A stretch of 64,000 bases of DNA from contig NZ_CP009241.1 of NCBI RefSeq assembly GCF_000758525.1, positions 6,076,001 through 6,140,000 of the forward strand. The letters are read 5' to 3'. Within the stretch, counting starts at the first letter, position 1; each line of letters opens with the position of its first letter. The notes under the pieces are model-generated. The model had not been told where the DNA came from. It did no database searches and worked only from the letters and a program-made list of their open reading frames with translations. The DNA is from Paenibacillus sp. FSL H7-0357 (GTDB lineage: Bacteria > Bacillota > Bacilli > Paenibacillales > Paenibacillaceae). Below, one piece after another: positions 15,614 to 40,002 of the stretch. The position numbers and the translations under genes were made by a program.

Positions 15614-15668
15614 TCCCCTCACTCTCCTCCCCCTTTATTTGACTTTCTTATAGAGTACTTTCTTATAG

Positions 15669-16715: not shown

Positions 16716-18022
16716 TCTATTAAGGTATGTACTTTTCTTCTACCAATAGATTCGTAGACCAATCCAGCATCCTCTGCCTCAGTAAGAGAGTAACAATTCC
16801 TTCCATCCAGTATAAGAGGCCTCTTCATTAACTCCTTATATTTATTAAGTGGAAAAGACTTAATCTCCGCCCATTCTGTAAAAATAAAGCATATATCTGT
16901 ATCTACTATTGTCTCTTCTATTGATTTACAATAATTAATTTCATCAGGAAAAATCCGTCTGAAGTTTTCAGTTCCAACTGGGTCCCATACTTTTACATTT
17001 GCGCCATCTTCAATCATCAAGGGAATATTCACTAAAGAAGGTGCATCTCTTAAATCATCTGTTCCAGGCTTGAAGGTTAAACCTAACACAGCAATACTGA
17101 GTCCGTTAAAACTATCAAAATATTTCCTGGATTTCTTTATTAGCTTTATCTTCTGATTCTCATTCACTTCGATTGCTGCCTTTACTGTTTTCAATTCATA
17201 GTCATTAAAACTAGCAAGCCAATGTAACGCTTTAGTATCCTTTGGGAAACATGATCCACCATAACCAATACCAGCATTTAGGAAGCGATTACCTATTCTT
17301 GGATCCATACCCATTCCTAAAGCAACATCATCAATGTTAGCTCCAACAATCTCACAAAGGTTAGCCATTTCATTGATGTAGGATATCTTCAAAGCTAGGA
17401 AGTCATTAGCAGCATACTTAATCATTTCTGCACTTCTACGGTTGGTAACTACAAAAGGTATATCAAACTCCTTATACATTTCCTTCATTAATTTCTCAGC
17501 ATTTTCAGACTCTACACCTAACACTATTCTTGTAGCATTCAGAGTATCTTTAACGGCTGTCCCTTGAGATAGAAATTCCGGATTAGAAGCGACTTCGATA
17601 GTTACATTATACTTTTTGTGTTCATTTATAATTTGTTCCACTTTATCATTAGTTCCTACTGGAACAGTTGACTTGACAATAACAATACAGTCTTGTTCTA
17701 CCGTTTGTGCTATTTGCCGAGCTACCTCAAATACATATTTTAAGTTCGCGGAGCCATCTTTCTTCTCTGGTGTTCCAACTCCAATGATAATGATTTGTGC
17801 ATCACTGTATGCTTTCATGTAATCAGTTGTATAAGTGATGTTCTCTTTATTTTGCTCCATAAGTAGCTCTAGGCCAGGTTCGTATATTGGAGAAGTACCA
17901 TTTTGCATAAGTGAAATTTTTTCTTTATCAATATCTAAACAGGTTATATTATTTCCTCTTTCAGCTAAACAAACAGCTGTAACCAGTCCTACGTAACCAG
18001 TACCCGCTACGGAGATTTTCAT
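16712..18022 (-). CDS. ugd: UDP-glucose/UDP-sugar 6-dehydrogenase
   Basis: A 436-residue NAD enzyme oxidising UDP-glucose (or a related UDP-sugar) to the uronic acid. The N-terminal Rossmann motif is GTGYVGLVTAVCLA. The catalytic-Cys motif NAGIGYGGSCFPKDTKAL places Cys258. The C-terminal domain begins near FKPGTDDLRDAPS. ATG 18022 is used, since AAGGA lies 10 bases upstream; ATG 18031 lies only two bases from it. The next gene overlaps by 4 bases. It implies a uronic acid in the polymer made by this locus. Confidence 0.95.
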   Translation of the reverse strand: MKISVAGTGYVGLVTAVCLAERGNNITCLDIDKEKISLMQNGTSPIYEPGLELLMEQNKENITYTTDYMKAYSDAQIIIIGVGTPEKKDGSANLKYVFEVARQIAQTVEQDCIVIVKSTVPVGTNDKVEQIINEHKKYNVTIEVASNPEFLSQGTAVKDTLNATRIVLGVESENAEKLMKEMYKEFDIPFVVTNRRSAEMIKYAANDFLALKISYINEMANLCEIVGANIDDVALGMGMDPRIGNRFLNAGIGYGGSCFPKDTKALHWLASFNDYELKTVKAAIEVNENQKIKLIKKSRKYFDSFNGLSIAVLGLTFKPGTDDLRDAPSLVNIPLMIEDGANVKVWDPVGTENFRRIFPDEINYCKSIEETIVDTDICFIFTEWAEIKSFPLNKYKELMKRPLILDGRNCYSLTEAEDAGLVYESIGRRKVHTLIE

Positions 18023-18027
18023 AATAA

Positions 18028-18939
18028 TCATATCCTTAACATTTTTTTAATAAGCGCTTTGTTCCATACAACAAAATACTCAAATCTAGTACCAAATCTA
18101 TCTTTAAACAATCTTATAATTTTGTCATTTAGTTCTGGATGATCAAATTCGCATCTCCTATTGCTCGTATTAATACTGGTATCATACTTACTACTTACTC
18201 CACTATGTGTACCTGATCCATCAAGGCCAATATTTTTCACTCTTGAGACTTTAGGGTATATTGTGAACATATCTAATTTAGATTGGCTATAACACCATCG
18301 TATTGCCCAGGAATCAATATCCCCCTTCATTTGGGAATCTAGCATAGCAGACAAATCTCTACCGCCGCGGTTAAACTTCTTCCGAAGACTCTTATCTATT
18401 CTAAAAGTCATGTAATCATCCACTTGCCAGTCTACATTGTCCCACCTATTTTTCCAAGTAGCCCATCCCCAGCTACACCCCCTATATGATAAATATACTT
18501 CACTTTCATATTTATCCGGGAAATCCAAATTAAAAGTATAACCACTTACTGACCAAATTTTTTTATCATTTTCATAAAATTTCAATGCATCATTCATATA
18601 ACTTAAAAAGTCCGGTGAAGTTATTAAATCATCCTCAAGAACAATTACTTGTTGAGTCAATTCAATTATTTCATTAACTCCTGAGATTATTGAATTTGCG
18701 AGTCCTTTATTAAACTCTGATTTAATGATTTTGACTGATTTAAACAACTTTTTATCAGGAAGTGTGTCAATATAATCTCTTACAAGTGTCACATTCTTAA
18801 TAGCCTTTTCATTTTTTGGTGCATCTGAGAATATAAAAACATCAGTGTCATCTGCCTGATAATTATAGGCTAATGATTCAATTGTCCGCCTAGTGTGCTC
18901 TGGTCTTGCATAAACAAATATTAAAACAGGAGCTAACAT
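18028..18939 (-). CDS. GT-A-fold glycosyltransferase
   Basis: A 303-residue glycosyltransferase resembling the GNT-I/GT13-like bacterial group. It starts PVLIFVYARPEHTRRTIESL, has FNKGLANSIISGVNEI, and the metal-binding acidic motif VLEDDLITSPDFL near residue 100, then SYRGCSWGWATWKNRW. It is cytoplasmic with no membrane segment. It would transfer one sugar during assembly of the lipid-linked repeat; donor and linkage cannot be told. It sits between the PaaK-like gene and ugd. Confidence 0.8.
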   Translation of the reverse strand: MLAPVLIFVYARPEHTRRTIESLAYNYQADDTDVFIFSDAPKNEKAIKNVTLVRDYIDTLPDKKLFKSVKIIKSEFNKGLANSIISGVNEIIELTQQVIVLEDDLITSPDFLSYMNDALKFYENDKKIWSVSGYTFNLDFPDKYESEVYLSYRGCSWGWATWKNRWDNVDWQVDDYMTFRIDKSLRKKFNRGGRDLSAMLDSQMKGDIDSWAIRWCYSQSKLDMFTIYPKVSRVKNIGLDGSGTHSGVSSKYDTSINTSNRRCEFDHPELNDKIIRLFKDRFGTRFEYFVVWNKALIKKMLRI

Positions 18940-18948
18940 AGTAACACC

Positions 18949-20313
18949 TCACAACGGTATATTTTGAATGAGTAGTTTCGACTTTCCTCTTTTTGTCAAA
19001 GGTAACTCAATTACAAACTCAAAATATGTTTTTATTTTTGCAATATCATAAAAATTATCATGAAGCTCAATTTGATCTTCCTGTGAAAACCTTTCATTTT
19101 TAATTATTCTAAAAACGATCACTCCAGGGGTGTTCTGCACAATTTGCCATTTTTCTATATGATCAAAAGCTTTATAGTGTCTACCAAATACTATAGCAGT
19201 TAGTAAGACTTTATCCATATTCTCAGTATAAATATAATCCTGTGTTCTCCCTAGAATCCTTTTAAGCCTCACTATCCCGTTCTCAATCCCGTCATAAGTA
19301 GCCAAATCTCCTGTACGATATCGTATAAAGGGCATAGCATAGTTATTAAATCCAGTCACGACCACTTCGCCAACTTCACCCGGTTTCACATGAATACCAT
19401 TTTCATCAATTATTTCAGTATATCCATAATAAGGGGAACAATAAGTTATAAGTCTATCATCAATTGAATAGCCAAATACGCTAGCTTCAGCATGCCCATA
19501 TTGATTAATAACTTTAGTTTTGAAAGCACGACTTATATTTTTCAGTTGATAATCAGAGAAGCTTTCAGATGTTAATTCAACCCCTTTTATCACCATGCCC
19601 AACTCAATGTTATTATCATTGATATAAGTTGCTATCGAATCGATAAATGATGGATAACCTCTTATGAAGCTTGGTTTGAAGTCCTTTATATACTCTACAT
19701 ATAAATGTTTATTATTATTAGTAAGATATTGCGATGACAAAGCAAAACTACCATATGGTATATCTTTTTCGCTTTTTCTTATCCAAAATATTTCTTGCTT
19801 CAGCAGTTCTTCTGGTATTATTGTACCGTCCATTGCCAAAATTTTATCTCCTGGAGAATATCCAAACATCCTGTATAAAAAATGTTGGTGCTCTGAATCA
19901 TAGCCCCCCAATGTATAAAATCCTAATGGTTCACCTGTGCTTCCTCCGGTAGTTACAAAACCAACATATTTTTTTGATTCAGGGATAGCCAAAATGTTGC
20001 TTTTTTCTTCTCTTATGGTACCTTTCGAGAGAAAAGGAATCCTAAAAAAATCTTCATAATTTTTTAAGTCAATCTGATTCTCAATAAATATTCTTTTATA
20101 ATATACAGAATTTTCAAACGCATAATTTAGAATTTTGATAATTTTTTTCCTATAGATATTTTCGAAATTCATGTTATGTCCCATATGAAATTTTTGGAGA
20201 TTTTTCAATCCGTAGTATATTTCCAACTTACCAATATAATGCCTGAAACCATAGCGAATATATTGAGGATCATTTAATCTTTTCATAATGCGAACTAATC
20301 GAGAATTCCCCAT
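18949..20313 (-). CDS. CapK/PaaK-like adenylate-forming enzyme
   Basis: A 454-residue member of the phenylacetate-CoA ligase-like group often found in capsule loci. The nucleotide loop is TTGGSTGEPLGFY, the aromatic motif QYGHAEASVFGY, and the ribose-binding motif MPFIRYRTGDLATYD. The C-terminal lid ends with LTKRGKSKLLIQN, which contains the expected Lys. Such proteins activate a carboxylate as an adenylate; the acyl or sugar-acid substrate in capsule clusters is not known. Possibilities are activation of an organic acid for polymer decoration, or of the uronic acid for amidation. It lies between wzx and a glycosyltransferase. Confidence 0.78.
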   Translation of the reverse strand: MGNSRLVRIMKRLNDPQYIRYGFRHYIGKLEIYYGLKNLQKFHMGHNMNFENIYRKKIIKILNYAFENSVYYKRIFIENQIDLKNYEDFFRIPFLSKGTIREEKSNILAIPESKKYVGFVTTGGSTGEPLGFYTLGGYDSEHQHFLYRMFGYSPGDKILAMDGTIIPEELLKQEIFWIRKSEKDIPYGSFALSSQYLTNNNKHLYVEYIKDFKPSFIRGYPSFIDSIATYINDNNIELGMVIKGVELTSESFSDYQLKNISRAFKTKVINQYGHAEASVFGYSIDDRLITYCSPYYGYTEIIDENGIHVKPGEVGEVVVTGFNNYAMPFIRYRTGDLATYDGIENGIVRLKRILGRTQDYIYTENMDKVLLTAIVFGRHYKAFDHIEKWQIVQNTPGVIVFRIIKNERFSQEDQIELHDNFYDIAKIKTYFEFVIELPLTKRGKSKLLIQNIPL

Positions 20314-26750: not shown

Positions 26751-27878
26751 TTAATATTTCCTCCATGTATTCCTATCAATTATATTTGTATAACTCTGTA
26801 TAATTTTTATGACCTTCACAGAAACATTCTCATCCTTATAGTCATAGGGTAGTAATGTTTTTTCATTGTTCAGTTTCATCTCACAAGCCAGTTTTATGGA
26901 TTGTTCAATTAGTTTAGTATCAATGCCTCCAATAACAACTGTTCCTTTATCTAAAACCTCGGGACGCTCTGTAGATGTTCTTAACAAGACCCCTGGAAAA
27001 TCCAGCATCGCACTCTCTTCAGACAAAGTACCACTATCCGAAAGAACACAATAACTATTCTTTTGGAGTTTATTATAATCAAGGAACCCAAATGGCTTTA
27101 AGTTCTGCACAAGTGGATGAAATTTGAAATTTCGTTGTTCAATATATTTCATGCTTCTTGGATGCGTAGAATAAATTACAGGCATTTGATAACGTTCAGC
27201 AATTTTATTAATTGCTGTCATTAATGATATGAAATTCTGTTCATTATCAATATTTTCTTCACGATGAGCTGAAACAATTATATATTTCTCCGGTTCCAAA
27301 TTTAATCGATTAAGCACATCACTAGCGTCGATCTTGTCCATATGTGCTTGAAGAACCTCTTGCATAGGTGAGCCTGTAACAAAAATATGTTCTTTACGGA
27401 ATCCTTCTGACAAAAGGTATCTTCTGGAATGTTCTGTATACGGAAGATTAATATCTGAAATATGGTCAACAATCTTGCGATTGATTTCCTCAGGAACGTT
27501 CTGATCGAAGCACCTATTCCCTGCTTCCATATGGAAAATAGGCACTTTCAGTCTTTTAGCAGCAATCGCACTCAGTGCACTATTAGTATCACCTAAAATA
27601 AGTAGAGCATCAGGTTTTTCCTTCTCAAGAACTTCGAACGATTTTGCTATTATGTTCCCCATAGTTTCTCCAAGATTAGTTCCCACTGCCTCAAGGAAGT
27701 AATCTGGTTGGCGAAGTTCAAGCTCATTGAAGAACACTTCATTTAATGTGTAATCCCAATTCTGCCCTGTATGTACTAGAACATGATTGAAGTATCTATC
27801 GCAAGCTTTTATGCACTCAGACAAACGAATAATCTCTGGTCTGGTTCCTAATATTGTCATAACCTTGAGTTTCTCCAT
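26751..27878 (-). CDS. capG: non-hydrolysing UDP-sugar 2-epimerase, CapG/FnlC-like
   Basis: A 375-residue epimerase of the WecB fold: MTILGTRPEIIRLSECIKA, VLVHTGQNWDY, LILGDTNSALSA, FHMEAGNRCFDQNVPEEINR, ISAHREENID-type VSAHREENID and LSDSGTLSEESAML. Following CapE and CapF in the same transcript, it should carry out the last step, UDP-2-acetamido-2,6-dideoxy-L-talose to UDP-L-FucNAc. WecB proper (UDP-ManNAc) has the same fold, so the call relies on context and on the residue style of CapG proteins. Confidence 0.9.
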   Translation of the reverse strand: MEKLKVMTILGTRPEIIRLSECIKACDRYFNHVLVHTGQNWDYTLNEVFFNELELRQPDYFLEAVGTNLGETMGNIIAKSFEVLEKEKPDALLILGDTNSALSAIAAKRLKVPIFHMEAGNRCFDQNVPEEINRKIVDHISDINLPYTEHSRRYLLSEGFRKEHIFVTGSPMQEVLQAHMDKIDASDVLNRLNLEPEKYIIVSAHREENIDNEQNFISLMTAINKIAERYQMPVIYSTHPRSMKYIEQRNFKFHPLVQNLKPFGFLDYNKLQKNSYCVLSDSGTLSEESAMLDFPGVLLRTSTERPEVLDKGTVVIGGIDTKLIEQSIKLACEMKLNNEKTLLPYDYKDENVSVKVIKIIQSYTNIIDRNTWRKY

Positions 27879-27882
27879 TTAT

Positions 27883-28998
27883 TTATACCTCCAAGTAATA
27901 AGTGTCTGGTTTGTCAGGATTAAATAATTCATTAGCCCAAAAAAGGGTTATTACATCAGTATTACCTGTGTTAGTAATAGAGTGTGTGTATCCAGGTGGA
28001 ATATCTATTACTCTTAAAGATGAACCATTTACTGGATACTCAAAGATTTCTTCGCCTTCAATCATTCGGAATTTCACAATAGCTTCGCCTTCAATGACAA
28101 GGAACTTCTCCACCTTAGTATGATGCCAGTGGTTGCCTCTTGTGATACCTGGTTTAGTCCGGGATATGAATACTTGACCAGAGTGTTCGCTCTTAACAAA
28201 CTCTGCTAACCATCCTCTATTATCATGTTTCATTTCCAGATTGTATCCGAAATCGTCTTCTTGCAAATAAGAGAGATAAGTACTATAAAGATAACGTTCA
28301 AAATCATTCTTCAGATCTGAGAGAACTAGTGTTCTTCGGCTAGCTTTAAATGAGGCTAAACTAGCCTCCAACTCCTTAAGTTTAACGTTAAATGATCGTG
28401 AAATATCAAGATAATCACTTGTCTTGGTTACATCCGAATTGTCCATGACGTGTATAAACGATTCAACTACATCATCAATATAAACCAACTTAACTTCTGC
28501 TTCCGGATCATTCACTTTAATGGGTATATCTCTACTAATATTGTAACACCAAGTCGCAACTACAGAATTATAGTTAGGTTTGCTCCATTTTCCGAAAACA
28601 TTTGGTAGCCTAAAGACAAATGTACGAATCTCTTCATTACGCCCATAAGCAAATACTGCTTCCTCAGCCGCACGTTTGCTGTTCCCATATGGATTATCCA
28701 TTTCAGCTTGTATCGATGAAGAAAGTAGTATTGGTGTCTTCTTTCCATTCGAACTCAAAATATTGAGTAGATGTTGAGTATAATCCAAGTTTCCAGTCAT
28801 AAATTCCTCAGTATTATCAGGACGATTAATTCCAGCAAGATGATAAATAAAATCTGCCTTAATCGCATATTCTTCTAATTCTTGGAGTGAATGCTTAGAG
28901 TCGATCTTCATAACCTCGATATCTTCTCTTCTATTTAATGATGCTACTAAATTACGTCCAATAAATCCGTGAGCACCTGTTACCAAAACAGTTTTCAT
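27883..28998 (-). CDS. capF: CapF/FnlB bifunctional enzyme of UDP-L-FucNAc synthesis
   Basis: A 371-residue two-domain protein. The N-terminal short-chain dehydrogenase domain has VTGAHGFIGRNL and NPYGNSKRAAEE. The C-terminal cupin domain, from about residue 245, has GITRGNHWHHTKVEKFLVIEG and IPPGYTHSITN, with metal-binding His residues. This fusion is characteristic of CapF of Staphylococcus aureus, where the cupin epimerises and the dehydrogenase domain reduces the CapE product. Five bases separate it from capE and four from capG. Confidence 0.95.
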   Translation of the reverse strand: MKTVLVTGAHGFIGRNLVASLNRREDIEVMKIDSKHSLQELEEYAIKADFIYHLAGINRPDNTEEFMTGNLDYTQHLLNILSSNGKKTPILLSSSIQAEMDNPYGNSKRAAEEAVFAYGRNEEIRTFVFRLPNVFGKWSKPNYNSVVATWCYNISRDIPIKVNDPEAEVKLVYIDDVVESFIHVMDNSDVTKTSDYLDISRSFNVKLKELEASLASFKASRRTLVLSDLKNDFERYLYSTYLSYLQEDDFGYNLEMKHDNRGWLAEFVKSEHSGQVFISRTKPGITRGNHWHHTKVEKFLVIEGEAIVKFRMIEGEEIFEYPVNGSSLRVIDIPPGYTHSITNTGNTDVITLFWANELFNPDKPDTYYLEV

Positions 28999-29003
28999 TA
29001 TTC

Positions 29004-30023
29004 TTAGCCCCTGCCATTAAGTTCTTTTTTTATCAAATCTAGACTTAACAAGAGTTCCTTTATACCTTGAATATCTAATCTTTCTGTATTATGAGAGTTG
29101 TATTCCCAGCCCACAGAAATTTCTTTATCACCTTCGTCAAAGAATTTATCATAGTTTAAGTCTCTGGTATCAGCAGAAATTCGATAATAGCTGCCCAAAT
29201 CTGTTGCTTTAGCCATTTCCTCACGTGTCAGTAACGTCTCATATAACTTTTCGCCATGTCTAGTTCCAATAACTCTTGTGTGACTGTCCGATTGAAATAG
29301 TTCTTTTAGGGCAACAGCTAGTTCTCCTATTGTTGAAGCAGGAGCTTTCTGAACGAAAATGTCCCCTTGTACTGCTTTATTAAATGCAAACAACACTAGT
29401 TCAACAGCATCCTCCAAGGACATTAGATAACGAGTCATATCAGGATCTGTAATTGTAATATCCTCATAATTTTTAATCTGATCAATAAATAATGGGATAA
29501 CAGAACCTCTTGAACACATTACATTTCCATAACGAGTTCCACAGATTAACGTATCTTCAGGAGAAACAGTTCTTGATTTAGCTACCATAACCTTCTCCAT
29601 CATCGCTTTTGAAATACCCATAGCATTGATAGGATAAACTGCTTTATCAGTCGATAGACATACGACTTTTTTCACTCCAAAAGCAATGGCAGCATTAAGA
29701 ACATTTTCGGTACCCATAACATTGGTCTTAACAGCTTCCATTGGAAAAAATTCACATGAAGGGACTTGTTTTAGGGCAGCGGCATGGAACACATAATCTA
29801 CGTTATGCATAGCTGCTGCCACGCTGTTGTAGTCTCTCACATCACCGATAAAGAATTTGACTTTATCATTTCTTAATTCCTTGCGCATATCATCCTGTTT
29901 CTTCTCATCTCTGGAGAATATTCTAATCTCACTAATTTCCGTGTTCAAGAATCTTTTTAAGACTGCATTACCAAAAGAGCCAGTTCCTCCAGTTATCAAT
30001 AACGTTTTTCCTGTAAACATCAT
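29004..30023 (-). CDS. capE: UDP-GlcNAc 4,6-dehydratase/5-epimerase, CapE/FnlA-like
   Basis: A 339-residue cytosolic extended short-chain dehydrogenase. It has LLITGGTGSFGNAVLKRF, FHAAALKQVPSCEF, STDKAVYPINAMGISKAMMEK and YGNVMCSRGSVIPLFIDQI. It lacks membrane segments, unlike the PglF-like protein of this locus. It performs the first step from UDP-GlcNAc towards UDP-L-FucNAc and stands directly before capF and capG. Confidence 0.94.
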   Translation of the reverse strand: MMFTGKTLLITGGTGSFGNAVLKRFLNTEISEIRIFSRDEKKQDDMRKELRNDKVKFFIGDVRDYNSVAAAMHNVDYVFHAAALKQVPSCEFFPMEAVKTNVMGTENVLNAAIAFGVKKVVCLSTDKAVYPINAMGISKAMMEKVMVAKSRTVSPEDTLICGTRYGNVMCSRGSVIPLFIDQIKNYEDITITDPDMTRYLMSLEDAVELVLFAFNKAVQGDIFVQKAPASTIGELAVALKELFQSDSHTRVIGTRHGEKLYETLLTREEMAKATDLGSYYRISADTRDLNYDKFFDEGDKEISVGWEYNSHNTERLDIQGIKELLLSLDLIKKELNGRG

Positions 30024-30047: not shown

Positions 30048-31250
30048 TTAATGAGAGACAATAATTTTGTAAGTTTTATCGACAGTAAAGTTTTCTTCTA
30101 AATAAGCTCTCCCATTAGAGCCCATTTCCAAACGTAATTTCTCACTGTTATTTAAAGTAGTTACATTATTCTTGAAACCTTCTAAATCCCCACTCTTAGA
30201 CCACAATCCACATTTTGCTTCATGTAACATATCTTTGACATCAGTATTGACATCTGTTGCTGCTAAAATTGGCAGTCTAAATTCCATATAAGAATTTAAT
30301 CTTGAAGGAAAGTTCGGAATTGTGAATCTTGCGTCTAAAAATACAAGTCCAACATCACTTACAGATAAAATCTCATCAAATTCATTTTTGGGCATGTATT
30401 TTTCTAACCGTGTGTTCTTTTGCTTACTTATAGTTATTTGATTCTTTATCTTCTCGAACTCAGTACCTGAACCTACTATTAAAACGTATGTCCGTTCTAT
30501 ATTTTCCAAACATTTTAAAACATCTATTAAAAAATCTATGCCTTGTGGTTTCCCTAAATTCCCCCCATAAACATATACCACCGCATCTGAAGGGATATTA
30601 TACTTAGATCGTATCCTATTTCTCTCTATAGAGGAATGAGTACGCATTTGAACTGGTTTAATAGAGTTAGGACAAACCTCGATCTGATTGATATCAACTT
30701 CGGTATTATGTTTGATAACATAATCTACGTTCGCTTTTGACATGCATCCAATATTATCAGATATTGCGTACAAACTTCTCTCTTTTCTTCTGAAATAATG
30801 CCATAGCATACTTCTTTCTTTAATGATTCCCAAATCAACTGCATTCTGTGGAAAAATATCCTTCAACAGCAAATATGATTTACTTCTATCCCGCTTTTTT
30901 ATATAATCAACTATCTTTACAAAAGTAATTGGTGGAGTTGAATATATGATTAAGTCAAATCTAATATCTTTAAAATACTCTTTTACAGCTTTGATAAACT
31001 GTCTTTCAATCAATAAGGTAGATATCCCCTTCTCTAGGAAACCAGTTTTTGTTACATTTCCTGTCTTTACTCTTAATACTTGTATACCGAATTCATTTTT
31101 AAGTTCTGTTTCTTTCTCATACCTCTTCTCACGCTGACAAATCACATAAACTTCATCGCCACGATCTTTAAACTCTCTCATCAAGTCTACATATAAATTT
31201 CTCGAGTCTTCCCCTTCTGGATAAGCGAGTGTCAAAAATAGTATTTTCAT
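30048..31250 (-). CDS. GT4 glycosyltransferase, WbuB-like (candidate FucNAc transferase)
   Basis: A 400-residue GT-B glycosyltransferase: MKILFLTLAYPEGEDSRNLY, LIIYSTPPITFVKIVDYIK, LLKDIFPQNAVDLGI, VYVYGGNLGKPQGIDFLIDVL and YMEFRLPILAATDVN. This set is typical of WbuB-type enzymes encoded beside fnlABC, which transfer L-FucNAc. Its place just upstream of capEFG supports that, by context only. It overlaps the upstream aminotransferase gene by 4 bases. Confidence 0.85.
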   Translation of the reverse strand: MKILFLTLAYPEGEDSRNLYVDLMREFKDRGDEVYVICQREKRYEKETELKNEFGIQVLRVKTGNVTKTGFLEKGISTLLIERQFIKAVKEYFKDIRFDLIIYSTPPITFVKIVDYIKKRDRSKSYLLLKDIFPQNAVDLGIIKERSMLWHYFRRKERSLYAISDNIGCMSKANVDYVIKHNTEVDINQIEVCPNSIKPVQMRTHSSIERNRIRSKYNIPSDAVVYVYGGNLGKPQGIDFLIDVLKCLENIERTYVLIVGSGTEFEKIKNQITISKQKNTRLEKYMPKNEFDEILSVSDVGLVFLDARFTIPNFPSRLNSYMEFRLPILAATDVNTDVKDMLHEAKCGLWSKSGDLEGFKNNVTTLNNSEKLRLEMGSNGRAYLEENFTVDKTYKIIVSH

Positions 31251-32395
31251 CTTTTATCAGATTCGAAAACTTCACTAAATGTGTTTATTACTAACCTTTG
31301 CTGATCCTGTGTCATAGAAGATCCTGAAGGGAGACAAATTCCATATTGAAATAAGTAACTGCCAACACTTTTAGTTTCATAGTGATTGAATATCGGTGTA
31401 TCTATGAATAGTGGCTGTAAATGCATCGGTTTCCATAAAGGCCGAGATTCAATATTCTTCATTTCAAGTTGATTAACTATATATTCAGGAGTGACATCAA
31501 CTCCCTCGTTTATGGTTAGTACAGATAACCAGTAATTAGGACTTCCCAAATCAGAAATCGGCATAAAACGGAGCGGCAATTCATTAAAACCATCTACATA
31601 TTGGTCAAATATAAACTTTCGGTTATCAATAAAACCATCCAAAGCCTGTAACTGTCCTCGGCCTATTCCAGCACTTATATTGGAAATTCGATAATTATAA
31701 CCTACTTCTTTATGTTCATAATGCTTGGCCGCCTCTCTAGATTGTGTTGCCCAAAATCGCATTTTCTTGATGGCCTCAGCATCGTTAGAAACGACCATTC
31801 CGCCACCCGAAGTAGTAATAATTTTGTTTCCATTAAAAGAGAATATACCTATATGACCAAATGTCCCACATTTCTTTCCTTTATACGTTGCCCCGAGAGC
31901 CTCAGCTGCATCTTCAATAACTGGAACTCCATATCGTTCACATATCGGTAATAGCTCATCGTAATCAGCACTCTGTCCATAAAGATCGACAATAATGACT
32001 GCCTTAGGCATTTTGTTTTCTTTTTTTGCCCATTCAAATGCTTTCTCTAAAGCTATTGGTGACATATTCCATGTTTCCGGTTCTGAGTCTATAAATACCG
32101 GCTGAGCGTATTGATATAATATTGGGTTGCAACTACCTGCAAATGTAAGGTCAGAACAAAAAACATAATCACCAGGACCCACATTAAAATATTTGAGCGC
32201 TAAGTGAATACCTGCAGTTCCAGAAGATAATGCCAGTCCGTGATCAATACCCACATATTCACATAATTCTTCCTCGAATTTATCTACATTAGTCCCAAGT
32301 GGCGCAATCCAATTACTATCAAAAGCTTCCTTTATGTAATTCATTTCATTCCCGCTCATGTGAGGAGGAGAAAGGAATATCCGTTCTTGTGTCAT
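31247..32395 (-). CDS. PglE-like sugar aminotransferase (DegT/DnrJ family)
   Basis: A 382-residue PLP-dependent aminotransferase. It begins RIFLSPPHMSGNEMNYIKEAFDSNWIAPLG, has ALSSGTAGIHLAL and EDAAEALGATYKG, and the PLP lysine is Lys191 in SFNGNKIITTSGGGM. The typical substrate is UDP-4-keto-6-deoxy-GlcNAc, giving the 4-amino sugar of bacillosamine synthesis. It lies 19 bases after the PglD-like acyltransferase gene, the standard pairing. The matching 4,6-dehydratase (PglF-like) is earlier in the transcript. Confidence 0.92.
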   Translation of the reverse strand: MTQERIFLSPPHMSGNEMNYIKEAFDSNWIAPLGTNVDKFEEELCEYVGIDHGLALSSGTAGIHLALKYFNVGPGDYVFCSDLTFAGSCNPILYQYAQPVFIDSEPETWNMSPIALEKAFEWAKKENKMPKAVIIVDLYGQSADYDELLPICERYGVPVIEDAAEALGATYKGKKCGTFGHIGIFSFNGNKIITTSGGGMVVSNDAEAIKKMRFWATQSREAAKHYEHKEVGYNYRISNISAGIGRGQLQALDGFIDNRKFIFDQYVDGFNELPLRFMPISDLGSPNYWLSVLTINEGVDVTPEYIVNQLEMKNIESRPLWKPMHLQPLFIDTPIFNHYETKSVGSYLFQYGICLPSGSSMTQDQQRLVINTFSEVFESDKR

Positions 32396-32414: not shown

Positions 32415-33059
32415 TTAGTTAAACTTAATAGGTTTTGCCGGAGAACCCACTGCAGTACAATTTGGAGGTAAATTCCTTACCACCACGGAACCAGCACCAA
32501 CAATTACATCTTCTTCTATAATAATTCCTTGTATAATTTGAGAACCTGTTCCTAGTTCAACAAAGTTATTAAGCTTAGTGTTGCCAGAGAGATTAACACT
32601 CGGATAAAGCGTACAAAAATCTTCAATTACGGCATCATGGCCAATAGTACAATCCAAATTCACAATAACATGTTTACCGATAGAAATATTTACCGTCAAT
32701 ATAGAACCTGCACAGATAATACTTCCTTGACCGACTTCTAACCATTCGGACATTATTACAGAAGGATCAATTAGCGTAACAAATCTCACATTGGAAAATT
32801 CTAACGCTTCAGAAATCACTTTTTTTCTTAGTTTAGGTTTCCCTATCGTACAAGCTACAGATATTGCTGATTCTCTCGAATCAAACCATTCCATTCCTCC
32901 CAATACCGGAAGACCATTTATAATACTTCCTTCCAGATGAGAATTATTATCTATGAAACCAATGAGATTCCATGTTTCCTGAAACCGGTTAATATTGTTT
33001 ACCAGCCAGGCAACCTCTCTTCCAAATCCTCCTGCTCCTATAAGTACAAGATCCTGCAT
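32415..33059 (-). CDS. PglD/NeuD-like sugar N-acyltransferase
   Basis: A 214-residue protein with an N-terminal sugar-nucleotide-binding Rossmann part (LVLIGAGGFGREVAWLV) and a C-terminal left-handed beta-helix of hexapeptide repeats (GSIICAGSILTVNISIGKHV ... VIVGAGSVVVRN). His141 in CTIGHDAVIEDF matches the catalytic base of PglD. PglD acetylates the 4-amino group of UDP-4-amino-sugars from acetyl-CoA. Here the two genes just upstream encode a thiolase and a 3-hydroxyacyl-CoA dehydrogenase, so another acyl-CoA may be the donor. Confidence 0.9.
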   Translation of the reverse strand: MQDLVLIGAGGFGREVAWLVNNINRFQETWNLIGFIDNNSHLEGSIINGLPVLGGMEWFDSRESAISVACTIGKPKLRKKVISEALEFSNVRFVTLIDPSVIMSEWLEVGQGSIICAGSILTVNISIGKHVIVNLDCTIGHDAVIEDFCTLYPSVNLSGNTKLNNFVELGTGSQIIQGIIIEEDVIVGAGSVVVRNLPPNCTAVGSPAKPIKFN

Positions 33060-33073
33060 GCATAATTCACCTC

Positions 33074-34339
33074 TTAATCTTTTCCTACAATAAATGTATA
33101 GTTTGTTGTTGCTGACCCTCCAATATTTAACATCATTGCATTTCTGGCATTATTAATTTGATATTCCCCAGCATTATTCGATATTTGTTTATACAAATCC
33201 AACAACATTCTAACTCCGGAAGCTCCGACAGGATGCCCCCCACCAATTAAACCACCGCTTGGATTCACTGGCTTTTCACCAGCGAATGAGATCAGGCCTG
33301 ACTCAATAGCTTCATACTCTTTTCCTGGATCTGTCAAACCCAAGCAGGATAATGCAGCATATTCACTGGATGTAAAACAATCATGAACCTCAAACAAATC
33401 TATATCCTTAACCTCTAATTCGGATTTTTTGTATGCCTCTTCAACTGCTGTTCGAGTCCATTTAAGAAGATACGGATTGTCACTACTTTCATTAATCTTT
33501 GAATTGAAAGTTAATGGAGCATTTCTGTGACCCCATCCTTTTATGTAAGGAAGGTCACTAATATTCAAGTTGTTTCTCCTGCAATAACTACGTGCATATT
33601 CTTCAGAAGCAAGAAGTACCATTGCTGCTCCATCAGTTGTTTGAGAACAATCACTAATAGCCAATCTTCCACCAACCAGTGGATTAGATTCCGTTTTCCG
33701 CATTTCAGATTGCGATCTACTCATAAACCAATTTTTTGTTTGTGATTTAGGATTTCTTTTAGCATTTGAATAATTAATATAAGAAATCTCAGCTAAGTTG
33801 TTCATATACCGCTCAGCATCAAGATTATATTTTTCAATAGTGGCATCAGCTAATTTACTAAATAAATTAGGAAACGGAAAGTCGACCCCTTTGGCTTCCT
33901 TCTCAAAATAAGAAGCACTTCCAAGGAACGTTCCACTCAACTTACTATTCACTGTCTTCATCATCTCAATACCTACTACAATAGCCAAATCATATTGCTC
34001 ACTTTTTATTTTGGCTATAGCAGCATCTATCGCTACTGAGCCTGAAGCACATGCTGCTTCATACCGTGCTGAAGGCAAACCATAGAATACATCACTAATC
34101 TCTGTAAGGAATGCTCCGAGATGTCCCTGAGACAAATAGTTTTCTGCTGCAAAATTACCTATAAAGGCTCCAATTTTATTCTCATTATTAAGTTTTTTAA
34201 TTTCGTCAGTTGAAATATTAGTTGCTAAAAATCCATCCTCTATAATTTCTCTAAACATTCCAACTAGTGATTTACCCTCTTTACTCCAATTGCGTTCGTA
34301 GTCACTTTGTTCTCCACCGAGAATATATACTTTGCTCAT
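33074..34339 (-). CDS. SCP2-type thiolase (acetyl-CoA acetyltransferase-like)
   Basis: A 421-residue thiolase-fold enzyme with an intact active site: nucleophile Cys97 in [14 protein letters not shown], the HDCF motif (His319-Asp320-Cys321) in [15 protein letters not shown], and His369 in [14 protein letters not shown]. The HDCF form places it with SCP2/SCPx-type thiolases rather than classical AtoB. Such enzymes condense or cleave 3-ketoacyl-CoA. In this polysaccharide transcript, between a hydroxyacyl-CoA dehydrogenase gene and a PglD-like gene, biosynthetic condensation to acetoacetyl-CoA or a homologue is inferred. Fifteen bases separate it from the acyltransferase gene. Not a normal capsule gene. 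Confidence 0.86.
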
Positions 34340-34359
34340 TGCTGCCCCCCATGGTAAAT

Positions 34360-35661
34360 CTAGAATTTAGCTCTCAAATATCTCCTGAAATCTAATTGCG
34401 AAGGTTCTATGTTTATTTTATTGAACATATCAACGAATGAATTCAGTTTAGTATCTTTGTTCATAATTTCTATCAATTTGTCTTTACCACCAAATAATTG
34501 CAACAGGGCTAACGGGGGCGCCCAATTAAATCCATATGCCATTACTGTATCAGCATCGTGTATACTTCCAGCAATTTCATCAGCTACAAATACTGAGTAC
34601 GTAATATATTTCATTAAGAAATGACTACAGATACGGGCTTCCTCTGAATCATTATTTATCAATATTTTGATAGCCTCGTCATAATTAGATTCTTTAATAG
34701 CAGCTACCATTCTTTGCACAAAATAAAAGGAATACTTGATTTGTGAACGATAATTTTTAGTTTCAATATCATAAACATATATATGTTTCTTCCCCGTACT
34801 ATCTCTTTCAAGTTTATATAACCCTTGGCCACATTTTCTCCCTAGTTTGTTCCCTTTAATTAATAGTTCGATAAATTCAGGTAACCTAAAAGAACTATTA
34901 TACATATCATGAGAATTAGTAAAGAGATTATCTGTGATCGCTTTGTATATATCAAGTCCAATAAAATCTACAGTTACAAGTGGAGCCATCCCCCTACCAG
35001 TAAAAGGACCCAGAATTGAATCGATATAATCGATTCCACCTCTATCTCTGTATAGTTCAGCAAATTGAAGTGCTTCATTTAAAAACTGGAAACCAATACG
35101 ATTCGCTAAAAACGCTGGTGCATCTTTAAGAACAACAACTTTTCTAAATAACACTTGCTCTAGATAAGCTCTTAAAGCAACGAGCACTTCTTTATCTGAA
35201 TTCTCGTTAGGAATCAACTCACACAATGGCAAGTTATATGGAGGATTAAAGAAATGTGTAACAAAATACAAAGATTGTCCTTCTTTATCAAAGCTTTCTT
35301 TCAATTTTTCTATAGAAAGACCTGAAGTCCCAGTACTTACAATTGTTCCGGGTCTTCTATGTTTAGAAATAATTTTATTCACTTCATTCTTCACTTCATA
35401 AATTTCAGCAACAGATTCAAATATCCAATCTGAGTTGGCGATACAATCTGCCAACTCATCAAAGGTCTTTGCTATTAAATTACCTCTAATTGAATCAGCT
35501 CTGACAGACCCAACAGCTTTTTCAATTCCTTCAAAAGACTTATCTAGAGACCTACTGACCATGTAAACTTCAACATTTCCAAAAGAAGCAAAAATCCCTG
35601 CTACCGCTGCGCCCATAGCCCCGTTTGCACCGATTACTGTTACTCTATTAATTGTTATCAT
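34360..35661 (-). CDS. 3-hydroxyacyl-CoA dehydrogenase
   Basis: A 433-residue NAD-dependent dehydrogenase. The Rossmann motif is [16 protein letters not shown]. The active-site series is kept: STGTSGLS, His136 in VTHFFNPP, Glu148 in CELIP and Asn187 in FLANRIGF. The C-terminal helical domain (from about residue 185) binds substrate and dimerises; a further helical extension follows to 433. ATG 35661 follows GGGGGA; a TTG at 35673 would add four residues. It interconverts 3-ketoacyl-CoA and L-3-hydroxyacyl-CoA. It lies between the PglC-like gene and the thiolase gene, 18-20 bases from each, which suggests a dedicated supply of hydroxyacyl-CoA for sugar acylation. Confidence 0.88.
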
Positions 35662-35691
35662 ATCTTCCCCCAAGGATGACCTTTTCGAGCG

Positions 35692-36312
35692 TTATAGACC
35701 TTCTTTTCTTACTGAAGCTAGCGAAGACATTGTAGTAACATCAGAATTATTAATTCCAGTTTTACGAATAATATTAACTACTGTTTTCAAAACAATCTTC
35801 AAATCCAAAACAAAGCTTACATGCTCAACATACCACACATCTAATCTGAACTTTTCATCCCACGATATCGCATTCCGACCATTCACTTGAGCCCATCCAG
35901 ATATACCTGGTGTAACGTCATGTCTTCGCAACTCATCAGAGGAATAGTAGTCCAGATATTCAACTAAAAGTGGTCTTGGGCCTATAAAGCTCATTTCACC
36001 TCTAATAATATTAAACAGTTGTGGGAGTTCATCTATACTTGATTTACGCAAAAATGATCCTATCTTGGTCAGCCTCATCATGTCAGGTAATAATTCGCCA
36101 GTTCGGTTTGTATCTGCTGACATGGTTCTAAATTTATACAGGGTAAAAACCCTACAATTTTTACCTGGACGTTTTTGCCGAAATAATACTGGACCATCAG
36201 AACTCACCTTAATTGCTATAAAGGCAGCTAACATAATGGGAGAAGTAAGAACAATAAGAAAACATGCAGTAAGCCAATCCATAATCCTCTTAACAATTAA
36301 GTAAGACTTCAT
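35692..36312 (-). CDS. PglC-like phosphoglycosyl transferase (initiating enzyme)
   Basis: A 206-residue monotopic phosphoglycosyl transferase. It has an N-terminal membrane helix (DWLTACFLIVLTSPIMLAAFIAI), the active-site helix VLFRQKRPGKN ... YKFRTMSADTN, SSIDELPQLFNIIRGEMSFIGPRPLL and PGISGWAQVNGRNAISW. It lacks the large N-terminal part of WbaP-like proteins, so it is of the small PglC type that moves phospho-bacillosamine or similar to undecaprenyl phosphate. It starts repeat-unit assembly. With the PglD-, PglE- and PglF-like genes it completes a bacillosamine-type set. Confidence 0.93.
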   Translation of the reverse strand: MKSYLIVKRIMDWLTACFLIVLTSPIMLAAFIAIKVSSDGPVLFRQKRPGKNCRVFTLYKFRTMSADTNRTGELLPDMMRLTKIGSFLRKSSIDELPQLFNIIRGEMSFIGPRPLLVEYLDYYSSDELRRHDVTPGISGWAQVNGRNAISWDEKFRLDVWYVEHVSFVLDLKIVLKTVVNIIRKTGINNSDVTTMSSLASVRKEGL

Positions 36313-36359
36313 TTATGATCAACCTCTATAGTTTAGATACTGAAAAAAATAGCGGGTAA

Positions 36360-37364
36360 CTACCCCGCCATACCTTCAGCTAATGCCATACCTTTTTGCA
36401 ATTCGGCTTCAAACGTTGCTCTGTATTGGGCAATAATAGCAGTGCTATGTCCATTACTCTTTAATTTTTGTTCAGCATCTGTAATAATACTATTGAAGCT
36501 CGCAGTGAAAGAGGATAACTGTTGTTTGCCCTTAGCTACAAGATTAGCCTTTGCAGCAGCGTCCTTAGCACTCACATACTCTATTGCAAGTCCATAAAGG
36601 GTTGAAGTGCTCTGATCGCGCAAGGCATTCAATTTCGCTTCTGTATCCCCTGTTATTTGTTCGTAGGTTAATGCTCCACTTCCACCAGCGCCCCCTCCAG
36701 TCGTTCCAGATGAAGGTTTCGGTGAAGGCGTTGAAGTTGGACCTGATCCAGTTGGAGTGGCAACGGGTACCACAGGTGTTGGAGTAACTTGAGCTTGATA
36801 TGATGGCGATTCAGCAGTAATTGTCTTTGTTGTTTGATTCCAGCTAATGTTGTTGCCTACAGATTCCGATAAAAAACGAAGAGGCACATATAATGTTCCG
36901 TTAAGCATATAACTGCCCTGCCCCGTAGGAACTGTTTTGGTAGATCCATTAAATACAAAGCTCGCTTTCACTTTACCCAACATAATATTTTTGGTTACTG
37001 CTGAAATACTACCTACATTCCCAACATTCATTAAATATTCTTTAATCACTACCAATTCCGAGCTACTAGGTTCAGACACTGTAACCTTTACGCTCTTGGC
37101 ATCCCAATTCACACTTTTCTGCAAAGCATAGGACATGAATCGAAGTGGAACATACGTTGTATTGTTGTAGGTGAATACATGCTGCCCGGTAGGAGGCTGT
37201 AAACTTACTCCATCAAAAATCATCTTCACGTTCATACTGGATGCTTTGATCGTATCAGCTACTGTTGCAGCTGATGCAGACAGTGGAGCAGATGCTGTTA
37301 ATGGGGCAACTCCTATCAGTGTAAGCAGTAACAACACCGCTGCTGGAAATTTCGCCTTAGGCAT
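36360..37364 (-). CDS. secreted copper-amine-oxidase-N domain protein
   Basis: A 334-residue exported protein. A signal peptide (PKAKFPAAVLLLLTLIGVAPLTASAPLSASA) is followed by two copies of the copper amine oxidase N-terminal-like domain. Each has the hallmark: YNNTTYVPLRFMSYAL with WDAKSVKVT, and LNGTLYVPLRFLSESVG with WNQTTKTIT. A Pro/Thr/Gly-rich linker (about residues 195-230) and a C-terminal helical region follow. ATG 37364 is used because GAAGGA precedes it and the upstream gene stops at 37366-37368. The domain occurs in many Paenibacillus envelope proteins and is probably wall- or polymer-binding; no enzyme activity is indicated. Confidence 0.8.
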   Translation of the reverse strand: MPKAKFPAAVLLLLTLIGVAPLTASAPLSASAATVADTIKASSMNVKMIFDGVSLQPPTGQHVFTYNNTTYVPLRFMSYALQKSVNWDAKSVKVTVSEPSSSELVVIKEYLMNVGNVGSISAVTKNIMLGKVKASFVFNGSTKTVPTGQGSYMLNGTLYVPLRFLSESVGNNISWNQTTKTITAESPSYQAQVTPTPVVPVATPTGSGPTSTPSPKPSSGTTGGGAGGSGALTYEQITGDTEAKLNALRDQSTSTLYGLAIEYVSAKDAAAKANLVAKGKQQLSSFTASFNSIITDAEQKLKSNGHSTAIIAQYRATFEAELQKGMALAEGMAG

Positions 37365-37365
37365 A

Positions 37366-38118
37366 TTACTCACTTCCTTCTTTTTCAGCTTTTTTTGCTT
37401 CTTCTTCTTCAACTAGTATTTGATCATGCGTCTTCCCTTGACTTACACCATATTTTTTGGCGACCTGGGACAACTCGTTATATTGTTCTTCAGAAACCTT
37501 ACCAAGAATGATACTACGGGCTTCCCGCTTCTCTTCTATACTCAGACCACCTTTAGCTAACTCTTGCAGCCGCTTAATATCTGAGAGGCTTAATTGACCC
37601 ATAACAATTGAAGCCACGTCTGCCTTATCCTTCACAGTAACACTTTCTTGTATTTGCTTTGCTTTGTCTGTTGAGACCTGAGCAGTATAGTCGTCTACTG
37701 CTGGAGTATTCGTAGGTTTACTTGTAGGTTTACTTGTAGGTTTACTCGTACCAGCGGTTGCTTGTCCGCCAGCATCCTCCCCCTTATCTGTACCCTCCGC
37801 AGCAGTTGTATCTGTAGATTTGGTGATTGCTGTGGATTGAGTTGTTGCTATAGGCTCTACACTTTTAGGTTCTCCACTTGCTGTTGGCTCCGCAGTCGCA
37901 TCTCCCGCCACTACAGCAGGTTCAACTTGCTCTCCCTTGGTTACATTATCAGTAGTCTGATCCACTTCCACATCGAAGCTATCGGCCATTGAACTCATTA
38001 GTTTGTCCACTGCGTAATTGGCTGCAAATAAGCCGCCCACACCAAGCACTACAATCACCGATAGCGTCCAGAACAATATCTTCTTCCATCTCTTGTTGAA
38101 CACTTCAGGCACCTCCAT
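37366..38118 (-). CDS. single-pass membrane protein with Thr/Pro-rich linker, unknown function
   Basis: A 250-residue protein. One transmembrane helix (ILFWTLSVIVVLGVGGLFAANY, residues 14-35) follows a basic N-terminus. Then there is a Thr/Ser/Pro-rich external stretch with the tandem repeat KPTS (about residues 125-137), and a charged helical C-terminal domain (about 150-250) ending in EEEEAKKAEKEG. The helical part contains two similar segments (ADVASIVMGQLSLSDIKRLQEL and EARSIILGKVSEEQYNELSQV), suggesting a duplication. I do not recognise a family. Being co-transcribed with the polysaccharide genes, it may be an envelope factor for polymer export or attachment. Confidence 0.75.
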   Translation of the reverse strand: MEVPEVFNKRWKKILFWTLSVIVVLGVGGLFAANYAVDKLMSSMADSFDVEVDQTTDNVTKGEQVEPAVVAGDATAEPTASGEPKSVEPIATTQSTAITKSTDTTAAEGTDKGEDAGGQATAGTSKPTSKPTSKPTNTPAVDDYTAQVSTDKAKQIQESVTVKDKADVASIVMGQLSLSDIKRLQELAKGGLSIEEKREARSIILGKVSEEQYNELSQVAKKYGVSQGKTHDQILVEEEEAKKAEKEGSE

Positions 38119-38127
38119 ATCAAAGAA

Positions 38128-39960
38128 TTAGCTAATTGCAGCTTGAGCTACTGGCTGCATTGGAACAATTTGGTTGATGACTTCACGAATGGCTTCTCCG
38201 TCTTCAGACAACACACGTTCCAATCGTTTGAATTCCAGTTCAAGCTGGTTCTGGCTTAGCACATTGGGTCTGCCGATGAAGATCCGGTCATGCTGGGTGG
38301 AACCCAGATTCTCCTCAGCAGTCAGCAGTTCTTCATACAGCTTCTCACCTTCCCGTATTCCAGAGAAGGTAATCGCGATGTCCCTGTAAGGCTCATAGCC
38401 AGATAAGGTAATCAAATCTTCCGCCAATGTCAGAATCTTGACAGGTTGCCCCATATCCAGCACAAAGACTTCCCCGCCGTTCGCGAAAGATCCGGATTGG
38501 ATAACAAGCTGTACCGCTTCTGGAATGGTCATGAAATAACGCACCATCTCTGGATGGGTAACGGTAACAGGTCCACCGGCAGCAATCTGCTGTTTGAACG
38601 CCGGTATTACACTGCCACGGCTGCCCAGTACATTGCCGAACCGCACAGCCGAGAACTTCGTTGGACTTGAAGTGTTAAGACTCTGCACATACATCTCGGC
38701 GATCCGCTTCGTCGCTCCCATTACGCTCGTTGGGTTGACTGCCTTGTCTGAAGAGATTAGTACGAAACGTTCCGCTCCATATTTATCTGCACAGTCCGCT
38801 ACATTGCGTGTACCGAAGACATTGTTCTTAATAGCCTCGGAAGGATTACGCTCCATTAGAGGAACGTGCTTATGTGCTGCCGCATGAAAGACTACGTGCG
38901 GTCTATGACACTCGAATACTTCCATAATCCGAGCGCGGTCCTGCACATCGGCTATGATTGTTACAACATTCAACTCAGGAAACTTCTTGCGGAGTTCCAT
39001 CTCAATCGTATAGATACTATTCTCGCCATGTCCGAGAATTAACAGCTTGCATGGTGCGAATGGAGAGATCTGACGACATAGTTCTGAGCCAATCGAGCCT
39101 CCAGCACCAGTAATTAATACTGTCTTGTTGTGCACATATCCAAGGATACTGTTCAGGTCAGCCACAATCGGTTCACGGCCAAGCAAATCCTCTACGCTTA
39201 CATCACGCAGCTTCTTCACCGAGATTTTGCCGGCGATTAGGTCATTCAGTGCAGGTATAATCTTAAGCTTAACTCCGGTAGCCTTAGCCAGATTAATAAT
39301 CTCTGAAATCTCCGTTCTTGAGACAGAAGGCATTGCAATAATAACCTCATGAATCTCAAATTCCTTCACGATCCTGGGAATATCATACCTGTTACCCAAC
39401 ACAGGCACACCAAGAATAGACAAATGGTATTTATCCACACTATCGTCTATAAATCCAACGATTCGAGTATGTGCAAATGAAGGTCCCATCATTTCACGGG
39501 CAATCAGAATTCCGCAGTCACCGGCACCCACAATCAAAGTATGCGTCTCTGTACCCTTGGAGTTAATCCGGTCATTCCGGAACACCCTCCAGCAGAAGCG
39601 CACCCCACCGACCAGCAGCAAAATGGTCTCTGTCGCCCGTACCTCAATACTAAGAGGGACCCGCTCAGGCAAAATAAGAAATGCCACTGCAAAAGCAAGA
39701 ACGGCGCCTACGACAATAGCTTTGAAGACCGAGACGATCTCGCCAATACTGGCATACTGCCACAATCTGCGGTAGAGCCCGAAGTAGATCAGACTCCCCC
39801 CAAAAGTGACAGTCGCAATAAGACCGAACATCAGCATCTGAAGCATATATTCGTCAGGGACGCCGTTAGGGAACCGGAACATATAAGAAGTTATAATACT
39901 GAACCAGATGATCGCAAGGTCAATGAGGAACAATAAATACACTCTGGTTTTCACTGTCAT
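38128..39960 (-). CDS. membrane UDP-GlcNAc 4,6-dehydratase, PglF/EpsC/CapD-like
   Basis: A 610-residue protein with four N-terminal transmembrane helices (about residues 10-110), a Rossmann-like domain (about 130-250: LIVGAGDCGILIAREM) and a catalytic short-chain dehydrogenase domain (from about 285: VLITGAGGSIGSELCRQI, FHAAAHKHVPLMERNP, SSDKAVNPTSVMGATKR). This is the architecture of PglF and WbpM, which make UDP-4-keto-6-deoxy-GlcNAc. ATG 39960 is chosen because GGAGG lies 9 bases upstream; a TTG at 39984 is less likely. Its product feeds the PglE-like aminotransferase. Confidence 0.92.
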   Translation of the reverse strand: MTVKTRVYLLFLIDLAIIWFSIITSYMFRFPNGVPDEYMLQMLMFGLIATVTFGGSLIYFGLYRRLWQYASIGEIVSVFKAIVVGAVLAFAVAFLILPERVPLSIEVRATETILLLVGGVRFCWRVFRNDRINSKGTETHTLIVGAGDCGILIAREMMGPSFAHTRIVGFIDDSVDKYHLSILGVPVLGNRYDIPRIVKEFEIHEVIIAMPSVSRTEISEIINLAKATGVKLKIIPALNDLIAGKISVKKLRDVSVEDLLGREPIVADLNSILGYVHNKTVLITGAGGSIGSELCRQISPFAPCKLLILGHGENSIYTIEMELRKKFPELNVVTIIADVQDRARIMEVFECHRPHVVFHAAAHKHVPLMERNPSEAIKNNVFGTRNVADCADKYGAERFVLISSDKAVNPTSVMGATKRIAEMYVQSLNTSSPTKFSAVRFGNVLGSRGSVIPAFKQQIAAGGPVTVTHPEMVRYFMTIPEAVQLVIQSGSFANGGEVFVLDMGQPVKILTLAEDLITLSGYEPYRDIAITFSGIREGEKLYEELLTAEENLGSTQHDRIFIGRPNVLSQNQLELEFKRLERVLSEDGEAIREVINQIVPMQPVAQAAIS

Positions 39961-40002
39961 TTTTAGTGCCTCCAAAAATAACAATTTTGTCTATGGAACA
40001 AC

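Follow-up and report, generated by a model that had tools for sequence, protein, structure and literature searches.

In a window of 64,000 nucleotides from Paenibacillus sp. FSL H7-0357 (contig NZ_CP009241.1, positions 6,076,001 to 6,140,000), genes for a 3-hydroxyacyl-CoA dehydrogenase (HCDH) and an SCP2-type thiolase are embedded in an operon for a bacillosamine-type sugar. We propose, with a probability of roughly three in four, that this pair supplies (S)-3-hydroxybutyryl-CoA for N-acylation of UDP-QuiNAc4N by the adjacent PglD-like enzyme, and that HCDH and thiolase together constitute a portable 3-hydroxyacyl donor module. In the proposed route, for which we infer reaction direction, chain length, configuration and use by the acyltransferase from sequence, the thiolase would condense two acetyl-CoA to acetoacetyl-CoA, which HCDH would reduce to (S)-3-hydroxybutyryl-CoA; without a hydratase the product would stay there. 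The PglF- and PglE-like enzymes would make UDP-QuiNAc4N, the PglD-like enzyme would transfer the (S)-3-hydroxybutyryl group to its 4-amino group, and the PglC-like enzyme would load the finished sugar phosphate on the lipid carrier as the first sugar of the repeat unit. The single enzymes are ordinary; the conserved donor module is new. If the proposal holds, the module names a dedicated source of the 3-hydroxybutyryl donor, predicts its (S) configuration, and allows N-hydroxyacylated glycans to be flagged in the genomes of gut Clostridia, Bacteroidales and Paenibacillus. Enzymes with an acetyltransferase annotation might then take a different donor.

The genes lie on the minus strand in the order PglC-like phosphoglycosyltransferase (35692..36312), HCDH (34360..35661), thiolase (33074..34339), PglD-like sugar N-acyltransferase (32415..33059) and PglE-like aminotransferase (31247..32395), followed by a glycosyltransferase gene and three L-FucNAc-type genes. 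A first-pass annotation had described the first five as consecutive, which we confirmed, with gaps of about 15-50 bases; the spacing is indeed close, with measured gaps of 30, 20, 14 and 19 bases. It had delimited the stretch 32415..36312, just outside of which the PglE-like gene is located. Purine-rich, Shine-Dalgarno-like stretches were seen by eye ahead of the HCDH, thiolase, PglD-like and PglE-like starts. The PglF-like UDP-GlcNAc 4,6-dehydratase of the membrane type (38128..39984, minus strand; Pfam Polysacc_synt_2, 408.7 bits) is located upstream, as had been noted, with two further genes in between. All four PglF-E-D-C steps are thus encoded in one locus with a transferase of the PglC class. 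The best solved relative of the dehydratase is WlaL (5bjw, 316 bits), which we take to be PglF. For the aminotransferase (DegT_DnrJ_EryC1, 314.9 bits) these are 1o61 and 4ztc (305 and 303 bits), presumably both Campylobacter jejuni PglE, and for the PglC-like enzyme (Bac_transf, 214.5 bits) it is chain 8e37 (226 bits), named 'N,N'-diacetylbacilliosaminyl-1-phosphate transferase'. The locus thus resembles the C. jejuni Pgl pathway in the best solved relatives of these three enzymes and in the PglD fold. To our knowledge, however, C. jejuni draws acetyl-CoA as donor from general metabolism and its pgl locus carries neither thiolase nor HCDH genes.

Both enzymes of the pair have intact active sites, as the first-pass annotation had stated. 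The thiolase retains C97, H319-D320-C321 and H369, and HCDH retains S117, H140, N143, E152 and N191; this numbering counts from an alternative TTG reading that begins at 35673, so that residues 140, 152 and 191 correspond to the earlier 136, 148 and 187 counted from the ATG at 35661. These are the positions with catalytic roles in the two enzyme families. The five HCDH residues are invariant in all 81 aligned relatives, and those of the thiolase are conserved in 66 or 67 of 67, the window included in both cases. The thiolase has the nucleophilic Cys, the HDC(F) motif and the His of GHP, which we take to be the motif set of SCP2-type thiolases, and matches NF004936 above cut-off (572.6 bits, cut-off 375). 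Its best solved chain is 4bi9, a putative 3-ketoacyl-CoA thiolase (208 bits), followed by the SCP2-thiolase type-1 6hsj with 115 bits; it is predicted to form acetoacetyl-CoA. HCDH shows the NAD domain, the C-terminal domain and the Ser/His/Glu/Asn set of an (S)-3-hydroxyacyl-CoA dehydrogenase (Pfam 3HCDH_N and 3HCDH). Its AlphaFold model (mean predicted local distance difference test score, pLDDT, 91.7) retrieved with Foldseek mostly FadB/FadJ-type alpha subunits, at query TM-scores of 0.56-0.74 among the 50 matches listed. However, only 3HCDH domains and no match to the N-terminal enoyl-CoA hydratase domain of FadB/FadJ were obtained with Pfam for the 437-aa protein, and a synthesis that starts from acetyl-CoA should therefore end with (S)-3-hydroxyacyl-CoA. 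The pair thus resembles FadB/FadJ plus FadA/FadI, the trifunctional enzyme of beta-oxidation, in that dehydrogenase part and thiolase are encoded side by side, but differs in the lacking hydratase domain, the SCP2-type thiolase and the position in glycan loci. Elsewhere the same genome has, besides weak matches, one gene that matches thiolase strongly and two that match 3HCDH strongly, indicating that the pair at this locus represents additional copies.

To follow the pair across genomes, these were scanned with an alignment of HCDH sequences, and 80 of 202 relatives were combined with the window and two Paenibacillus loci, giving 83 loci. The HCDH relatives were listed under Bacillota, Bacteroidota, Spirochaetota, Verrucomicrobiota, Actinomycetota, Planctomycetota and Thermodesulfobacteriota; a scan of viral contigs yielded no relative. 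In 68 of the 83 loci a thiolase gene directly follows HCDH on the same strand. The HCDH frame was not called in two (L060, L078), and thiolase is missing from this position in 13, three of which (L023, L028, L086) have a hexapeptide enzyme directly ahead of HCDH; that of L086 is LpxD-like (220 bits, cut-off 207). In four loci of a spirochaete clade (L066, L068, L069, L071), HCDH without thiolase is directly followed by a gene of a family-2 glycosyltransferase group. The adjacency with sugar N-acyltransferases that the first-pass annotation had called for checking was observed: in 44 of the 68 loci, the pair has an acyltransferase as immediate neighbor (PglD in 18, QdtC-like in 11, LpxD-like in 8, acyltransferase-3 in 4, GNAT in 2, another hexapeptide enzyme in 1), and in 37 this neighbor is a PglD-, QdtC- or LpxD-like enzyme. 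The list of acyltransferases behind these counts is incomplete, as L058, counted as having none, has a 681-aa neighbor with a weak GNAT match (32.1 bits). Excluding Paenibacillus, PglD-, QdtC- and LpxD-like genes account for 34 of 109 flanking genes vs 2 of 528 same-strand genes at least three genes away; the Fisher p of 3e-26 is too small, since related loci are not independent. No description of a thiolase-HCDH pair in glycan loci was found among the papers listed in literature searches, as judged from titles and the openings of abstracts, with few subscription journals among them. In three loci (L075, L084, L087) the pair is near a gene like that of sporulation protein YunB (by Pfam for L084), and L075 and L084 also have an acyltransferase-3 gene.

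The partner of the pair changes between loci. In the HCDH tree, a broad label for hexapeptide partners changes 20 times, and well supported branches force 13 or more of these changes, indicating that the pair gained or lost such acyltransferases many times. A broad first label 'PglD', of which L080 was a false member, is kept in this tree but was abandoned for the final counts because it lumped true PglD (~215 aa) together with longer hexapeptide enzymes, and was split by Pfam, NCBIfam and bit scores; the LpxD and QdtC classes were seeded from flanking genes and searched over all genes of all loci at one threshold of 100 bits. The exchange is seen even within Paenibacillus. In the window and in a second locus (L099) the pair is accompanied by PglD, PglE and PglC, whereas in the third (L100) it is found with a QdtC-like enzyme, an FdtA ketoisomerase (152.6 bits) and an aminotransferase, a set for a 3-amino sugar. 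L100 thereby resembles the QdtA-QdtB-QdtC route to dTDP-Qui3NAc, with the donor pair as an addition. In the LpxD-like partners, which occur in Clostridia and Erysipelotrichaceae, NF002060 or TIGR01853 is the best NCBIfam model in eight of eight; NF002060 scores range from 146 to 214 bits and exceed the cut-off of 207 in one, from Dorea (L021), whose best solved chain is LpxD. As LpxD uses 3-hydroxyacyl donors in lipid A synthesis, these partners are an independent pointer to a 3-hydroxyacyl product of the pair. None of the eight genomes, some of which are perhaps incomplete, gave an LpxC match, while the same search succeeded with E. coli and three further genomes. A PIG-L de-N-acetylase is encoded near the pair in three of the eight loci (L054, L062, L077; Clostridia), together with HCDH-thiolase, the LpxD-like enzyme and a PglC-like enzyme. 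This arrangement resembles the LpxC/LpxD steps of lipid A synthesis, with the difference that LpxC was undetected and that the donor is predicted to be CoA-bound and (S). We consider it fairly probable, if less so than the proposal for the window, that HCDH-thiolase is a widespread donor module for 3-hydroxyacylation of surface sugars which works interchangeably with PglD-, QdtC- and LpxD-like N-acyltransferases and some others, the clostridial form exchanging the acyl group of a glycan sugar in the manner of LpxC/LpxD. The idea of a locus-encoded donor in the first-pass annotation was probably right and too narrow; it is strengthened by partner exchange and by the missing hydratase domain, while the use of 3-hydroxybutyryl by the PglD-like enzyme stays a prediction.

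The PglD-like enzyme (PglD_N and Hexapep; TIGR03570, 206.8 bits, cut-off 160.8) was modeled by AlphaFold with a mean pLDDT of 94.8 and a TM-score of 0.92 to VioB (7txp), and its His141 aligns with the His of three solved acetyltransferases. For a tree, 18 of 38 flanking and 29 of 38 other PglDs (chosen by length), eight non-flanking sequences and one PDB chain were used. The 38 PglD relatives of the reciprocal test described below comprised 26 from 245 genomes of the host's own family (E <= 1e-30) and 12 from 295 genomes of the order to which Dorea sp. 5-2 belongs (E <= 1e-40). The window PglD falls into a group of 11 rows composed exclusively of pair-associated PglDs from Paenibacillus, Clostridia, Erysipelotrichaceae, Verrucomicrobiota and Actinomycetota, apart from the PglDs of its own family (support 89/82, moderate, in a tree whose bootstrap had not settled). 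The suggested comparison of the acyl pocket was carried out on alignment columns. The eight top columns separating the 18 pair-associated from the 29 other PglDs are 154, 135, 12, 136, 176, 186, 152 and 140, of which 135, 136, 140, 152 and 154 are within 13 residues of His141. Gly140 is present in 18 of 18 pair-associated vs 9 of 29 other PglDs, and this position is Ser, Ala or Asp in the three solved acetyltransferases. As a signal from the acyl pocket these differences are suggestive at most, and relatedness could explain part of them.

The predicted sugar has been described elsewhere. Bacterial amino sugars repeatedly bear 3-hydroxybutyryl as their N-acyl group, and the capsule papers, in the parts available to us, assign its donor to no gene. 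QuiNAc4N with (S)-3-hydroxybutanoyl is the product of the Acinetobacter baumannii qhbCB/gdr module (PMC9676051, Table 7) and occurs in Plesiomonas shigelloides O1, whose repeat also contains L-FucNAc, and in Pseudoalteromonas (PMC3210612). The qhbCB/gdr module for UDP-QuiNAc4NHb shares 4,6-dehydratase, aminotransferase and acyltransferase with the window, but the portion of PMC9676051 at hand describes no donor-making genes, whereas thiolase and HCDH are in the operon here. A comparable case of locus-encoded enzymes is the viosamine island of Pseudomonas syringae (vioA, B, T, M, S, R, acp), which produces a 3-hydroxybutyryl amide on a 4-amino sugar and in which, from the sections of PMC3927599 available, deletion of vioR abolishes modified viosamine. 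Its donor genes, however, encode a 3-oxoacyl-ACP synthase III, a 3-oxoacyl-ACP reductase and an acyl carrier protein (ACP), and the sugar is dTDP-linked (PMC3927599). By Pfam and NCBIfam, the donor genes here are instead thiolase and 3HCDH; ACP was not searched separately. Should the thiolase use a primer other than acetyl-CoA, the same logic would yield a different (S)-3-hydroxyacyl-CoA, with a longer or branched chain for instance. N-acyl groups do vary: the medium determines whether Qui4N of Shewanella MR-4 bears 3-hydroxy-3-methylbutyrate or 3-hydroxybutyrate (PMC3210612, in part). In three loci, moreover, a gene of an enoyl-CoA hydratase group (L041:4962-5813, L042:9107-9964, L044:9238-9996; by Pfam for L042, by similarity for the others) lies directly ahead of the pair. 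Chain length is not readable from sequence, but the group published on QuiNAc4N in the sources above is 3-hydroxybutanoyl, and we regard another acyl chain in the window as unlikely. Two of these three loci also have an ATP-grasp gene nearby, and in all three the pair may serve another acyl product.

Several observations weigh against (S)-3-hydroxybutyrylation by the PglD-like enzyme. Its closest solved relatives, VioB, WeeI, PglB, PerB and PglD, are all acetyltransferases that use acetyl-CoA, and the QdtC-like enzyme of L100 scores 451 bits to QdtC, named an acetyltransferase in the PDB. Seven of the 18 pair-associated PglDs fall outside the 11-row group, the support of which is moderate, and some of these seven branch next to three PglDs from the Dorea order. 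None of the 38 PglD relatives has the pair within ~1.5 kb on either side, in a reciprocal test that left out the copies of the window and L099; PglD thus generally does not travel with the pair, while the pair travels with acyltransferases. HCDH is expected to yield the (S) product, whereas classical LpxD takes the (R) isomer in lipid A synthesis. In the main texts of two A. baumannii capsule papers (one of them PMC9676051), 'thiolase' is never mentioned; the sugar is thus evidently made there with no such genes described, and general metabolism presumably supplies the donor. The PglD-like enzyme might instead attach acetyl as in diacetylbacillosamine, with the acyl group of the pair being used elsewhere, for example in O-acylation of the polymer: an acyltransferase-3 flanks the pair in 4 of 68 loci, and the window contains two neighboring acyltransferase-3-like genes at 13489-15622 (minus strand; 107.1 bits, and 30.3 bits with a cut-off of 31), at the edge of the glycan region and outside its low-GC block. 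However, the sole acyltransferase touching the pair in this operon is the PglD-like enzyme, and PglD-, QdtC- and LpxD-like enzymes are the commonest partners; we therefore judge plain N-acetylation, with the acyl group of the pair used elsewhere, improbable and favor N-acylation by the PglD-like enzyme.

Further counterpoints concern the pair itself. No recognized acyltransferase touches it in 24 of 68 loci, six of them in Leptospirales, and the window HCDH groups outside the main set with spirochaete HCDHs (98/90) whose loci have no recognized adjoining acyltransferase. Most loci stem from metagenome-assembled genomes, and single phylum labels may therefore be wrong. The pair is rare: of 394 genomes in the family, 3 have the thiolase, the own one included, and HCDH occurs in 2 of 295 genomes of the Dorea order, Dorea included. 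The six related Leptospirales pairs would fit a remnant of fatty-acid degradation that hitchhikes in glycan loci without a glycan function. Yet the association recurs across phyla with catalytic residues kept, and a Pfam scan of 21 genes of the region detected neither an enoyl-CoA hydratase nor an acyl-CoA dehydrogenase. The rarity within the family, listed above as a weak point, also argues against a remnant, as the pair sits inside a low-GC glycan block: GC content from ~16 to 36 kb is 30-37% vs 41-58% in the remaining 2-kb windows, and the block looks exchanged. A hitchhiking remnant thus appears very improbable compared with a donor function in the glycan pathway. The host genome is a single contig of 7.69 Mb, and close relatives of the window genes occur in named Paenibacillus strains. 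Directly after the pair, five loci (for example L053:7576-8562 and L063:12742-13734; Leptospirales) encode a family of about 320-331 aa, two members of which gave no match when scanned with Pfam.

Downstream of the PglE-like gene, and overlapping it by 4 bases, is the glycosyltransferase gene (30048..31250; Glycos_transf_1, 51.1 bits). It is followed on the minus strand by genes for an FnlA-like dehydratase/epimerase (29004..30023; TIGR04130, 568.8 bits, under the cut-off of 730), a WbcJ/FnlB-like reductase (27883..28998; NF047837, 443.7 bits, under the cut-off of 500) and a WecB/FnlC-like 2-epimerase (26751..27878; TIGR00236, 244.8 bits, cut-off 210.15). These belong to the L-FucNAc pathway, and the repeat unit probably also includes L-FucNAc. 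The two genes separating the PglF- from the PglC-like gene (36360-37412 and 37366-38118, minus strand) overlap each other and have counterparts at the same place in L099 with 58% and 55% identity; the first matches the N-terminal domain of copper amine oxidase (67.1 bits) and the second has no Pfam match. Just ahead of the pglC-like gene, a consensus scan alone marked a terminator-like hairpin (36349..36371, minus strand), a weak indication with 15 such sites in the region against a shuffle mean of 11.7; neither the terminator-like nor the promoter-like sites from the scan settle anything. A 454-aa protein encoded at 18949-20313 (minus strand), presumably CapK/PaaK-like, matches the AMP-binding family weakly (PF00501, 27.5 bits, cut-off 29.9) and is a possible second acyl-activating enzyme of the glycan block. 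Finally, a gene of the UDP-glucose/GDP-mannose dehydrogenase family is located at 16712-18031 (minus strand, 212.6 bits), and the repeat unit may therefore also contain a uronic acid.

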